Below the pieces are notes generated by a model that was given only the letters and a program-made list of their open reading frames with translations, was not told where the DNA came from and ran no database searches. A DNA stretch of 64,000 nucleotides from Deltaproteobacteria bacterium (GTDB taxonomy: Bacteria > Myxococcota_A > Polyangia > DRWM01 > JAAZOP01): the NCBI GenBank assembly GCA_016218765.1, contig JACRCZ010000009.1:18372-82371 (forward strand), read 5' to 3'. Positions 50,967-55,761 of this stretch are shown here, piece after piece (position 1 is the stretch's first letter; the number at the start of each line of letters is the position of its first letter). Both the position numbers and the translations under genes were made by a program.

Positions 50967-51028
50967 ACCCTTCGACAAGCTCAGGGTGCGGGCCGACGCT
51001 GAGGGCGCTGAGACAAACGCTGAGAGGG
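50967..51028. repeat. Composite short-repeat patch (imperfect palindrome ACCCTTCGACAAGCTCAGGGT plus CGCTGAGGG-type units)
   Basis: ACCCT/AGGGT arms at 50967-50987; ACGCTGAGG, GCGCTGAGA, ACGCTGAGA at 50996-51028. Confidence 0.65.
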
Positions 51029-51199
51029 GGGGGCTGGGTGCGGGGGACGTGCCGGGACGTCTTGCTCGCGGGCGCAGAGCCCCCACTCGGGACACGCCGC
51101 GCTGAAGCCGATGCAGGTCGTTCCCGGGACGCCGGAGCAGTCGGGCGTGCCGGCGAGGATGCAGTACTTGCAGCCGAGATGGGGCGGACCGCCGGTCAA
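50981..51199 (-). CDS. Putative small Cys-rich protein translationally coupled to rtcA
   Basis: TTG overlaps rtcA TGA (TTGA): MTGGPPHLGCKYCILAGTPDCSGVPGTTCIGFSAACPEWGLCAREQDVP...; six Cys, GC3-biased codons. Confidence 0.45.
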   Translation of the reverse strand: MTGGPPHLGCKYCILAGTPDCSGVPGTTCIGFSAACPEWGLCAREQDVPARPPHPAPPSQRLSQRPQRRPAP

Positions 51200-52218
51200 G
51201 CGGCCCCCACGCGCACCTCGACGACGTCCTCGCCGGCCTCCGTCACGCCCACGTCCACCTCGAGGAACCGCCGGAGCACCTCGATGTTCGTCAGCGTGTG
51301 GCGCGAGAGGCGCACGGTGCGGAAACGCCCGCCACCGGCCTGAGCCAGCGGCAGCAGGAGCTGGTCCGACAGGTACGGGCCCACCGGGACGCCGGTGCCG
51401 AGGTACCGGCGCGCCGCGTCCGCCGCTTGCCGCCCGACGACCTCGGCCGCCACGCCCCGCTCGCCGAACGCCGTGAACACTTCCGTCACGTGCTCGCTCT
51501 CCACCTCGACCAGCACCACGTTCCCCGGACCACGCGAGTTCCGTACCTCTTCCAGCTGCAGATCGTCCGGGCCGCACCCCAGCCGCGCCGCGATCGCGTC
51601 CAGCTCGCGCCGGCCGACTTCCCGCGGCAGGGAGGCGACGAGCGCGCGCGCCGAAGTCCGCCGCACGGCCCCGCGCTCGAGCAGCTCCAGCGGCTCCAGC
51701 TTCACCGCCGGTCGTACCTCGACCTCGAAGGCGCCGCCGCCTGCCGGGTAGAACCCCGGCCGCACGAGCCGCGCCTCGACCGCCGGACCCATCCGCCCCA
51801 GCAGCGGCAAGTAGGCGCGCTCCAGGAAGTCGAACGGCGGCGCGTACGGGTTGTGCGTGCCGCCCTCGAGCACCAGCGTCGACGGCCCACCGGCCGTGCA
51901 CAGCGCCGGCAGCACGGTCTGGAGCACCAGGGTCGTGCTGCCCGCCGTGCCGACCGCCAGCGCGTAGCGTCCGGGCCGCACCGAGCTGGGCCGGAACGTG
52001 ATCGTCACCGCGCCGATCGCCGCGCCCTCGACCTCGGCCCCGCCGATGCGCACCGCGGCGTCCAGCGCCGTGAGGTGCTGGCGCAGGAGGCCCGGCCTGG
52101 GCCGCCCCGCCCGGATGTGTTCGATGCGGAACGGCGCCCCGGTGACCAGCGACAGGGCGAGCGACGTGCGCAGCACCTGCCCGCCGCCTTCGCCCATGGA
52201 TCCGTCGATGACCAGCAC
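51196..52218 (-). CDS. rtcA: RNA 3'-terminal phosphate cyclase
   Basis: VLVIDGSMGEGGGQVLRTSLALSLVTGAPFRIEHIRAGRPRPGLLRQHLTAL; FYPAGGGAFEVEVRP; DQLLLPLAQAGGGRF; LTNIEVLRRFL. Confidence 0.96.
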   Translation of the reverse strand: MLVIDGSMGEGGGQVLRTSLALSLVTGAPFRIEHIRAGRPRPGLLRQHLTALDAAVRIGGAEVEGAAIGAVTITFRPSSVRPGRYALAVGTAGSTTLVLQTVLPALCTAGGPSTLVLEGGTHNPYAPPFDFLERAYLPLLGRMGPAVEARLVRPGFYPAGGGAFEVEVRPAVKLEPLELLERGAVRRTSARALVASLPREVGRRELDAIAARLGCGPDDLQLEEVRNSRGPGNVVLVEVESEHVTEVFTAFGERGVAAEVVGRQAADAARRYLGTGVPVGPYLSDQLLLPLAQAGGGRFRTVRLSRHTLTNIEVLRRFLEVDVGVTEAGEDVVEVRVGAA

Positions 52219-52238
52219 GAGTCCGACATTCTAGCGCG

Positions 52239-52298
52239 AAAAGGGGCCGACGAGGTTCGCCGAGACGTTGACCTGTAGTCCCGGCAGCATTCGGCCCC
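52239..52298 (-). ncRNA. Candidate Y-like structured RNA or attenuator between rsr and rtcA
   Basis: Minus strand GGGGCCGA-AUGCU-GCCGGGAC-UACAGGUCAAC-GUCUCGGC-GAACCUCG-UCGGCCCC-UUUU: two coaxial 8-bp stems, closing 5'/3' stem, U-tract. Confidence 0.4.
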
Positions 52299-52309: not shown

Positions 52310-53866
52310 TCACAGGGGCACGGCGTCGACCGCCCCCACCCAGTGCCGCGCGTCCAGCCGCCCGGCGGCGAAGTCGGCCACGACGTCGAACACGGCGTCC
52401 GAGAACCCGCCGACGTTGAGCACGTCGTGGCGCTCCTGTGCCTGCGTCGTCCCGTACGGCTGCAGGTCGATGCACACCAGCTTCGCCCCCGCCCGGCGGG
52501 CGGCGAGCGCGTTCCACTCGCGCAGCAGCGCCGTGCCGCGCCCGCCGCCCGCATCGACCCACGACTGGTTGTCGGACACGAAAAGTACCAGGTCGACCGC
52601 CTCCTTCCGCTCGTTGAGCCGCGCCAGCGGCGCCGAGCAATTGGTGCCGCCGCCGCCGACCGCCGCGAGCCTCGCGGCGTTCGTCATCACGCTGTCCCGC
52701 GGATTCGGCTCCACGTCCACCACCTCGTTCTCGAACGCCAGCACCTCCGCCCGCGGGTTGGCCCGCAGCACCGACGCCGCCATCAGCGCCGCGACGTCCA
52801 CGCACCGCACCGCCGTCGTCGCACCCTTGCGCACGCCGGTGAGCGGCGAGCGCATCGAGCCCGAGACGTCCGGACAGACGACGACCCGCCCCTCGAGCGC
52901 CGGCACGTTGGCCGTCGCTGCTTCCAGCGCGTCCTGCAGCGCCTCGCGCACCACCGCCGGCACGCCGGTGCCCGCGCTCATGGCGTAGGCCGCCAGGAGC
53001 TGGTACGGGAACGCCTTCGCCCGCCGCACCTCCTGCGGGTCGCCGAGCTTGCCGGCGACCTTCCGCGTCACCGCCTCGTCCTCGAACACGCCGTGCCGCG
53101 CGAACGTGTTGAGGTTCATCCGCGTCGTTTGCCACGACGCCCGCTCCGCGATCCCGCACCAGGCCTTGCGGTCCAGCGGGAGCGCCGTGAGCATCAGGAA
53201 CGGCACGTCCGGCGCCTCCCGCGTTCGGCCCGCCTTGAAGTCCTCGAACCGCCGCACGACGTCCGGCAGCGCGGCCGCGTCGTGCTCCCGGCCCAGCAGG
53301 TAGCCGTAGAGCGCGGAGCGCTCCGGCGTCACCGGGCGCGGGTGCACCATGCGGATCACGTCCGCCAGCGACGGGCTTGCACCCACCGACGCACGGAACA
53401 GCTCCTCCTCCGTCCGCTCCTGGAGCCAGTTCCGCACCAGCCGCCGCGGATGCGTGCCCAGCGACTTGCGACCGGCGATGCCCGAGCGCACGACCTGGAC
53501 GTAGTTGCGCAGCATCTTCCCGTCGTCCACGACCCGCGGGAAGATCGCGTCCAGCAACTCCGGCTTGCGCGCCGTCAGCACGGCCGCCAGCACGGCCGGC
53601 GCGTCCTTCATCCGACCCCGCTGCCGCGCGTGGACCGCCGCCCGCGCCACGAACTCGGGCTCGACCTCGTTCGTCGCCGCGAGCAGCTCCTCGAGCTGCC
53701 GCTCCGCGGTCGCGTAGAACGCCCCGCCGAAGCACCCGGTCGAGGCGAGCTGCGCGAGGCGGTGCTTCGGCGTGTACGCGTACGCCGGCGCCCCCTCGCG
53801 GTTGCGCGCGTCCGCCCGCGGAACGAGCTTGCCGACCGGCGTTCGGAACAGGCCCTTGTTCGCCAT
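52310..53866 (-). CDS. rsr: Ro60/Rsr-type TROVE-vWA RNA-binding protein
   Basis: TROVE-like helical N-term; vWA MIDAS VVVCPDVSGSMRSP; GGGGTNCSAPLARLNERKEAVDLVLFVSDNQSW. Confidence 0.93.
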   Translation of the reverse strand: MANKGLFRTPVGKLVPRADARNREGAPAYAYTPKHRLAQLASTGCFGGAFYATAERQLEELLAATNEVEPEFVARAAVHARQRGRMKDAPAVLAAVLTARKPELLDAIFPRVVDDGKMLRNYVQVVRSGIAGRKSLGTHPRRLVRNWLQERTEEELFRASVGASPSLADVIRMVHPRPVTPERSALYGYLLGREHDAAALPDVVRRFEDFKAGRTREAPDVPFLMLTALPLDRKAWCGIAERASWQTTRMNLNTFARHGVFEDEAVTRKVAGKLGDPQEVRRAKAFPYQLLAAYAMSAGTGVPAVVREALQDALEAATANVPALEGRVVVCPDVSGSMRSPLTGVRKGATTAVRCVDVAALMAASVLRANPRAEVLAFENEVVDVEPNPRDSVMTNAARLAAVGGGGTNCSAPLARLNERKEAVDLVLFVSDNQSWVDAGGGRGTALLREWNALAARRAGAKLVCIDLQPYGTTQAQERHDVLNVGGFSDAVFDVVADFAAGRLDARHWVGAVDAVPL

Positions 53867-53929
53867 TGCCCGCCTTCCCTTCTCCGGCCCGCAGCCCCGG
53901 GCCACGTCTTCGTCTCGCCCCAAGGACAG

Positions 53930-53945
53930 TGCGCGGCCCGTGCCA
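53930..53945 (-). promoter_or_regulatory. Sigma54 promoter of rsr-rtcA operon
   Basis: Minus strand TGGCACG-GGCC-GCGCA, perfect -24 element and conserved -12 GC; 64 bp upstream of rsr ATG; divergent from rtcR. Confidence 0.65.
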
Positions 53946-54144: not shown

Positions 54145-55761
54145 ATGCGGCGCAAGACGGTGATGATCGGCCTCCTGGGCTCGGTGCTCGACGCCGGACC
54201 CGCCGGAACGGCGCGCTGGGAGAAGTGGCGCCCGACGGTCGCGCTCTGCCGTCACCCCGACCTGCTCATCGATCGCTTCGAGCTGCTCCACCCGTCGCGC
54301 ATCGCGTCGCTGGCCCGCATCGTGGAGGCGGACATGCGGTCGGTGGCGCCTGAGACCGAGGTCCGCGCCACGCCGTTCGAGCTGAAGGACCCGTGGGACT
54401 TCGAGGAGGTCTTCGCGGCGCTGCACGACTTCGCCCGCGCCTATCCGTTCGACCCGGAGCGCGAGGACTACCTGGTGCACATCACGACCGGCACCCACGT
54501 GGCGCAGATCTGCCTCTTCCTCCTCACCGAGTCCCGCCACTTCCCGGCCCGCCTCGTCCAGACCGCGCCGCCCGCCGGGCGCTCCCGCGGCGGCCCCGGC
54601 ACCTACCGCGTCATCGATCTCGACCTCTCCCGCTACGATCGCATCGCGTCGCGCTTCCGGGTCGAGCGCGACGAGGCGTTGGTCTCGCTCAAGTCGGGCA
54701 TCGCCACGCGCAACGCCGCGTTCAACGCGCTCATCGAGCGCGTGGAGCGGGTGGCCGTGCGTTCCACCGCGCCCATCCTGCTCCAGGGTCCCACCGGCGC
54801 CGGCAAGACCGTGTTGGCCCGACGGATCTACGAGGTCAAGAAGGCCCGGCGCCTGGTCGAGGGCCCGCTGGTCGAGGTCAACTGCGCGACGCTGCGGGGT
54901 GACGCGGCCATGTCGACCCTCTTCGGCCACGTGCGCGGCGCTTTCACCGGCGCCCTGCGCGACCGCCCCGGCCTCCTGCTCGCCGCCCACAAGGGCCTCC
55001 TGCTCCTCGACGAGATCGGCGAGCTGGGCCCGGACGAGCAGGCGATGCTGTTGCGGGCGCTGGAGGACCGCCGCTTCCTGCCGTTGGGCGCCGACCGCGA
55101 CGTCGGCAGCGAGTTCCAGCTCATCGCCGGCACCAACCGCGACCTCGCCGCGGCCGTCGCTCGCGGGACCTTCCGCGAGGATCTTCTCGCGCGCATCGAC
55201 CTGTGGACCTTCCATCTCCCCGGCCTGCGCGAGCGGCCCGAGGACGTCGAGCCGAACCTCGGGTACGAGCTGGACGAGTTCGCGAGGCGGACCGGGCAGC
55301 GGGTGGGGTTCAACGCCGAGGCGCGGGCGCGGTTCCTCGCGTTCGCCGCCGACCCGGGCGCCCCGTGGCCGGCGAACTTCCGCGAGTTCAACGCCGCCGT
55401 GACTCGCATGGCCACGCTCGCGGCGGGAGGGCGCATCACGGCAGCCGTGGTGGACGACGAGGTCGCGCGGCTCCAAGCCGGCTGGCGTCGCCGCGCCGCG
55501 GTTCCGCCCACCGGCCCGGGCGCCGACGTCCTGCCCTCGCGCATCGCCGCCGATCTCGATCGCTTCGACGCCATGCAGCTCGCCGAGGTCGTCCGCGTCT
55601 GTCGCGGCTGCCGCTCGCTGTCCGAGGCGGGGCGCGAGCTCTTCGCCGCATCGCGCCGCCGCAAGGCCTCGCCGAACGACGCCGATCGCCTCCGCAAGTA
55701 CCTCGCCCGCTTCGGCCTGCGCTGGGACGAGCTTCGCGCCCCGGCACCTCCGGACCCATGA
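54145..55761 (+). CDS. rtcR: RtcR: CARF-type N-terminus plus sigma54 AAA+ activator
   Basis: MRRKTVMIGLLGSVLDAG; HITTGTHVAQICLFLLTES; GPTGAGKTVLARRIYEVKK; GHVRGAFTGALRDRPGLLLAAHKGLLLLDEIGEL. Confidence 0.96.
   Translation: MRRKTVMIGLLGSVLDAGPAGTARWEKWRPTVALCRHPDLLIDRFELLHPSRIASLARIVEADMRSVAPETEVRATPFELKDPWDFEEVFAALHDFARAYPFDPEREDYLVHITTGTHVAQICLFLLTESRHFPARLVQTAPPAGRSRGGPGTYRVIDLDLSRYDRIASRFRVERDEALVSLKSGIATRNAAFNALIERVERVAVRSTAPILLQGPTGAGKTVLARRIYEVKKARRLVEGPLVEVNCATLRGDAAMSTLFGHVRGAFTGALRDRPGLLLAAHKGLLLLDEIGELGPDEQAMLLRALEDRRFLPLGADRDVGSEFQLIAGTNRDLAAAVARGTFREDLLARIDLWTFHLPGLRERPEDVEPNLGYELDEFARRTGQRVGFNAEARARFLAFAADPGAPWPANFREFNAAVTRMATLAAGGRITAAVVDDEVARLQAGWRRRAAVPPTGPGADVLPSRIAADLDRFDAMQLAEVVRVCRGCRSLSEAGRELFAASRRRKASPNDADRLRKYLARFGLRWDELRAPAPPDP

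Follow-up and report, generated by a model that had tools for sequence, protein, structure and literature searches.

In the window (the whole 64,000-nucleotide stretch of DNA that was analysed), the gene encoding the Ro60-like protein Rsr and the gene encoding the RNA 3'-terminal phosphate cyclase RtcA follow each other on the minus strand, and a divergent rtcR lies upstream of rsr. The 91-nt gap between the rsr stop codon (ending at 52310) and the rtcA start codon (52218) houses a hairpin that begins 11 nt past the rsr stop and is probably a Y RNA. The features of the locus are as follows.

54145..55761, plus strand: rtcR, divergent sigma54 activator upstream of rsr (PF06956, 4.8e-81, and a sigma54 activation domain)
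53930..53945, minus strand: candidate promoter of the sigma54 (-24/-12) type for the rsr-Y-rtcA operon, TGGCAC-N5-GCGCA, lying some 65 nt ahead of the rsr ATG
52310..53866, minus strand: rsr, Ro60/TROVE protein (PF25045 vWA_Ro60, 3.9e-19, and TROVE)
52243..52298, minus strand: probable Y RNA of the YrlB type, without a tRNA-like domain (covariance model R1, 50.0 bits; RF02565 below threshold in the same register)
52291..52298, minus strand: 5' strand of the outer stem, expected to bind Rsr, with its partner at 52243-52250 (compensatory change in 7 of 8 pairs; 98% of cells paired)
52287..52292, minus strand: conserved GAAUGC at the base of the internal loop (invariant or nearly so in 27 tRNA-less and 18 tRNA-bearing Y RNAs)
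52274..52285, minus strand: inner helix, 5' strand (GCCGGGAC), together with the conserved UACA that opens the loop (two-sided change in 5 of 7 pairs)
52259..52266, minus strand: inner helix, 3' strand (GUCUCGGC; RNAfold and covariation)
52243..52254, minus strand: conserved 3' element CUCGUC (consensus CUUGUC), leading into the outer stem's 3' strand (consensus of alignment A2 and R1 alignment)
52239..52242, minus strand: UUUU past the stem (read from the sequence; UUU in the sister species)
52231..52290, minus strand: mini-ORF of 19 codons that overlaps the RNA and was dismissed as a gene (relatives keep neither its frame nor its stop)
51196..52218, minus strand: rtcA, RNA 3'-terminal phosphate cyclase (PF01137, 2.7e-74)

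The rsr-rtcA operon and its intergenic hairpin

The Pfam matches on either side of the gap bear out the placement between Ro60/rsr and rtcA that had been proposed in an earlier note on this DNA. The ATG at 53866 is the likely start of rsr, while the open frame reaches back to a TTG at 53923, and the best PDB match of the protein is the Rsr of Deinococcus radiodurans (2NVO, E=2.8e-29). The divergent rtcR adjoins rsr and rtcA, an arrangement expected of an RtcR RNA-repair operon. The candidate sigma54 promoter has two mismatches and an imperfect -12 half, and chance matches of such quality are common; its weight comes from its position and from the sister species, which has the same TTGGCACGGGCCGCGCA-like stretch. 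The sole rtcB detected in the organism lies away from this operon, on another contig (G000:C100:78953-80260). On the minus strand just after rtcA (51060-51195), one frame reads as the Cys-rich stretch CKYCILAGTPDCSGVPGTTCIGFSAACPEWGLC, for which the sister species shows no evident counterpart. A single copy of TTCGACAAGCTCAGG, which we take to be a dispersed repeat of many environmental genomes, is found at 50971-50985.

As read from the sequence, the hairpin spans 56 nt, both ends of the closing pair included (52298-52243). The layout of the minus strand from 52298 to 52239 is GGGGCCGA-AUGCU-GCCGGGAC-(11 nt)-GUCUCGGC-(8 nt)-UCGGCCCC-UUUU, an exact match to the two stems, internal loop and U-tract that had been described earlier with no strand given. 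Both helices are present in the minimum free energy and centroid structures of RNAfold. The energy of the hairpin, -33.6 kcal/mol vs a shuffled mean of -32.8 (z = -0.24), matches that of shuffles in such GC-rich DNA, and thus the fold alone is no evidence for an RNA. The inner helix contains a G.U pair between G at 52281 and U at 52263, which is kept in 24 of the 27 tRNA-less relatives described below. This pair occupies the fourth position of the inner helix (A2 columns 21/50) and is conserved in both classes of Y RNA (58 of 73 helices). It is possibly a recognition feature.

Homology and covariation with bacterial Y RNAs

The hairpin RNA carries the Y RNA signature CGAAUGC-n-GGACUACA. A search for the motif CGAATGC-N(2-9)-GRAYTACA gave one match in the window, with 0 expected, and the variant CGAATGC-N(3-8)-GAYTAC has a single match in the whole 5.9-Mb genome. 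The same motif is found beside rsr in Ro60 relatives from Acidobacteriota, Planctomycetota, Myxococcota and phages. Loci with CGAAUGC-n-GRAYUACA fall into two classes, a long one with a T-loop and a permuted tRNA-like body (YrlA type) and a short one without these. Our hairpin belongs with the short tRNA-less type of 55-75 nt, represented by YrlB and many relatives, and not with the YrlA type of 90-150 nt, which removes the concern that it is too short for a Y RNA.

At gathering thresholds, no Rfam family matched anywhere in the window. In a permissive scan, the YrlB model RF02565 aligned to the hairpin over its full length with 22 bits (E 0.43 over 3.5 kb), far from its gathering score of 97 bits. 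The cmscan alignment places model positions 1-78 on 52303-52241, and CGAAUGC, GCCGGGA and UAC are common to both. Thus, comparison with the Rfam models, as the earlier note had suggested, gave agreement with YrlB in register at a score well under the cut-off. Some tRNA-less relatives match RF02565 more clearly (L020, 1.8e-5; L004, 0.005).

A covariance model, R1, represents 27 short tRNA-less Y RNAs from other genera and from viral contigs, with the genus of the window left out (alignment A2). R1 scored the hairpin at 50.0 bits in the window (E=1.2e-13). Against the whole 5.9-Mb genome, the hairpin was recovered at E=1.1e-11, and the runner-up reached 16 bits (E=1.2). Among 294 genomes of the class, 27 had an R1 match at E<=1e-3, all 27 encode a vWA_Ro60 protein, and most of the matches lie close to its gene. 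Weak matches of about 25 bits in two distant genomes (G058 and G019) were treated as noise.

Covariation across the 27 relatives in A2, the check that had been set for the Y RNA reading, is strong in both helices. In the alignment, 94.3% of cells are paired vs 63.6% after shuffling, with slid controls at 37-52%, and compensatory two-sided changes number 111 cells vs 31.6 in shuffles. The covariation score is 0.723 vs 0.177 +/- 0.021 for shuffled alignments and 0.08-0.17 for slid partners, and 0 of 500 shuffles scored as high. Further, RNAalifold applied to A2 recovers the two helices of the hairpin unaided. Candidates entered A2 on the strength of their 5' motif and outer stem, and pairing in that stem therefore partly reflects the choice; neither the inner helix nor the 3' CUUGUC element served as a criterion, which gives both independent weight. 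The hairpin adjoins rsr and combines a closing stem and the elements GAAUGC and GRAYUACA, which both classes share, with a covarying structure, as expected of a Y RNA.

Some Ro60-bearing genomes and contigs have more than one Y RNA candidate. Six R1 matches, which are Y RNA candidates, are scattered over the chromosome of a genome of the same class with two Ro60 genes (G252:C1). A large viral contig (L044:6002-6967) has up to eight motif-bearing tRNA-less candidates arrayed beside Ro60, and tRNA-less candidates occur in pairs or triplets at L035, L037 and L039. Tandem arrays downstream of rsr at L020:5625-6379 and L026:5537-6125 mix tRNA-like with tRNA-less Y RNAs. Large tRNA gene clusters lie upstream of rsr at L016, L019 and L020.

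Absence of a tRNA-like domain and alternative readings

The hairpin caps in an 11-nt loop, and the T-arm, acceptor and D-arm domain is absent; a search of the rsr locus for a T-arm found none. R1 is insufficient to exclude YrlA, as it scores some YrlA RNAs weakly (14.8 bits for L023), and hence the Rfam YrlA model RF02553 and a dedicated model of the tRNA-bearing type, R2, were used. The best RF02553 scores were 23 bits in the genome of the window (G000), 26 in its sister species (G003), 20 in G005 and below 21 in G100, whereas most carriers of YrlA score about 50-75. With R2, full-length YrlA RNAs score 83 bits or more in named loci, and carrier genomes give values of up to 109. In the same four genomes, the best R2 matches besides the short Y RNAs had 22-29 bits and were tRNA-like stretches; the top match in G000 and in G003 was the short Y RNA itself, aligned with the domain deleted (40.9 bits for the RNA of the window). 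The four genomes are 71-83% complete. G000 and G003 are metagenome-assembled genomes (MAGs) of 80-83% completeness, their rsr contigs (82 and 77 kb) were included whole in the genome-wide searches, and both rsr neighbourhoods are intact. Most other Ro60-bearing genomes of the class carry YrlA. In G005, two intact short tRNA-less RNAs lie between rsr and rtcA; similarly, G100 has two after rsr, also intact, with rtcB downstream. No tRNA-like form was detected in either genome.

The sister species (G003/L015) has an Rsr that is 93% identical and a Y RNA identical at 53 of 56 nt (94.6%). Two of the three differences convert the closing pair from G-C to C-G, a compensatory change, and the third is a base of the internal loop. 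The rsr gene and the Y RNA are intact in this species, while rtcA is a pseudogene whose fragments are joined by large internal deletions (L015:5690-5955, G003:C44); in the MAG, these deletions sit within the 77-kb contig. As Rsr and the RNA persist where rtcA is gutted, the RNA is kept with Rsr and not with rtcA.

These observations bear on what else the hairpin could be. An intrinsic terminator or attenuator that tunes the ratio of rsr to rtcA and yields no separate RNA product would also look like a GC-rich stem with UUUU behind it, placed between genes of one operon, and in several relatives too a T-run ends the stem. This reading, raised earlier as an alternative, is improbable: the conserved elements sit in the internal loop and the inner helix rather than in the terminator features, and elsewhere the same RNA stands beside rsr with different downstream genes, such as an ORF followed by rtcB in L093. 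In the sister species the U-run is only UUU, and persistence of the RNA, with its swapped closing pair, beside a wrecked rtcA weakens the attenuator further. Termination could nonetheless be a second role of a Y RNA. It is less probable still that the hairpin is a degenerate leftover without function, derived from a larger YrlA-type RNA by deletion of the tRNA-like domain. YrlA-type RNAs do occur in relatives within the class, and R2 does align to the hairpin in just this way; yet two species retain the RNA at 94.6% identity with a compensatory pair, the tRNA-less forms are a conserved class of their own, and G005 and G100 likewise have only such forms, two each and intact.

The least credible reading is that the segment codes for a 19-residue leader peptide, MLPGLQVNVSANLVGPFSR. 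An ATG does follow an AGGAGG located 13 nt upstream, and the stop lies 12 nt ahead of the rtcA start, but this Shine-Dalgarno spacing is overlong and the ATG falls inside the invariant RNA element GAAUGC. Conservation at the peptide level, looked for in the 27 relatives, was absent: they give unrelated peptides and several in-frame stops, and a 1-nt deletion in the sister species shifts the frame ahead of the stop. The mini-ORF mentioned in the earlier note was therefore set aside.

A probable short Y RNA, seemingly on its own, and its proposed role

The Y RNA reading of the earlier note is supported by homology (R1) and covariation, and it can be narrowed to a YrlB-type RNA without the tRNA-like domain. 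We conclude, with a probability of about 0.82, that 52298-52243 on the minus strand is a short YrlB-type Y RNA in a predicted RtcR/sigma54 rsr-Y-rtcA operon and would gate Rsr rather than tether it to PNPase. Its identity as a Y RNA is argued from comparative sequence data, namely homology, covariation and linkage to rsr.

Bacterial Rsr binds the conserved stem of Y RNAs, and a T-arm-like hairpin region binds the KH/S1 domains of PNPase (PMC6181284, PMC8394870). In the rsr-yrlBA-rtcBA operon of Salmonella, RtcR senses tRNA fragments with a 2',3'-cyclic phosphate and turns the operon on (PMC7790460). The hairpin resembles the YrlB (RF02565) of this operon in size class, in its position after rsr, in the outer stem with the GAAUGC loop and in the inner GCCGGGAY helix followed by UAC. 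However, Salmonella has yrlA alongside and rtcB in the operon, whereas here the hairpin is alone and rtcB is on another contig. Salmonella YrlB is annotated, and its role is not addressed in the literature cited here. YrlA (RF02553) shares with the hairpin the motifs GAAUGC and GRAYUACA, the conserved G.U pair, the outer stem and the 3' element CUUGUC; its domain of T-arm, acceptor and D-arm is wholly missing here. In D. radiodurans, Rsr, Y RNA and PNPase form RYPER. Here too, an Rsr orthologue is encoded with a Y RNA, but the T-arm-like hairpin that binds PNPase in RYPER (PMC6181284) has no counterpart. Assembly of RYPER by the known route is not expected, since the hairpin lacks the PNPase-holding part.

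By analogy with these systems, RNA damage would activate RtcR, and the rsr-Y-rtcA operon would be transcribed and its transcript processed. Rsr would then bind and stabilize the hairpin through the outer stem and its internal loop of GAAUGC / CUCGUC, and the bound hairpin may cover or gate the RNA-binding surface of the Rsr ring. A small G.U-containing hairpin caps the RNA in place of the permuted tRNA-like domain of YrlA. Most likely, this Y RNA gates or stabilizes Rsr, with no tethering of PNPase by the known route.

The possibility that the tRNA-like domain is missing for want of PNPase was rejected. A domain search found only S1-domain matches in G000 and full PNPase in G003 and G005; with the enzyme present in the sister species, its lack fails to explain the missing domain, and its absence from G000 is most likely due to incompleteness of the MAG.

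The surprising part is that the short Y RNA is alone, the YrlB-type kind itself being already known. Judging from the two MAGs of the genus, at 80-83% completeness, the hairpin seems to be the only Y RNA of this bacterium. We give an even chance to the broader proposal that only tRNA-less Y RNAs serve Ro60 in this genus and, independently of it, in two or more further lineages (G005 and G100), giving a Ro60 RNP without the known PNPase tether. To our knowledge, the published generalization is that no species lacks a tRNA-like Y RNA; such lineages, if real, would go against it. R1 also finds tRNA-less Y RNAs well past the Rfam cut-off for YrlB, in several phyla and in viral contigs. An operon with such a hairpin as its only detectable Y RNA may allow the Rsr-binding and gating role to be studied without the tRNA mimic, and the sole hairpin suggests that Rsr can be useful without RYPER.
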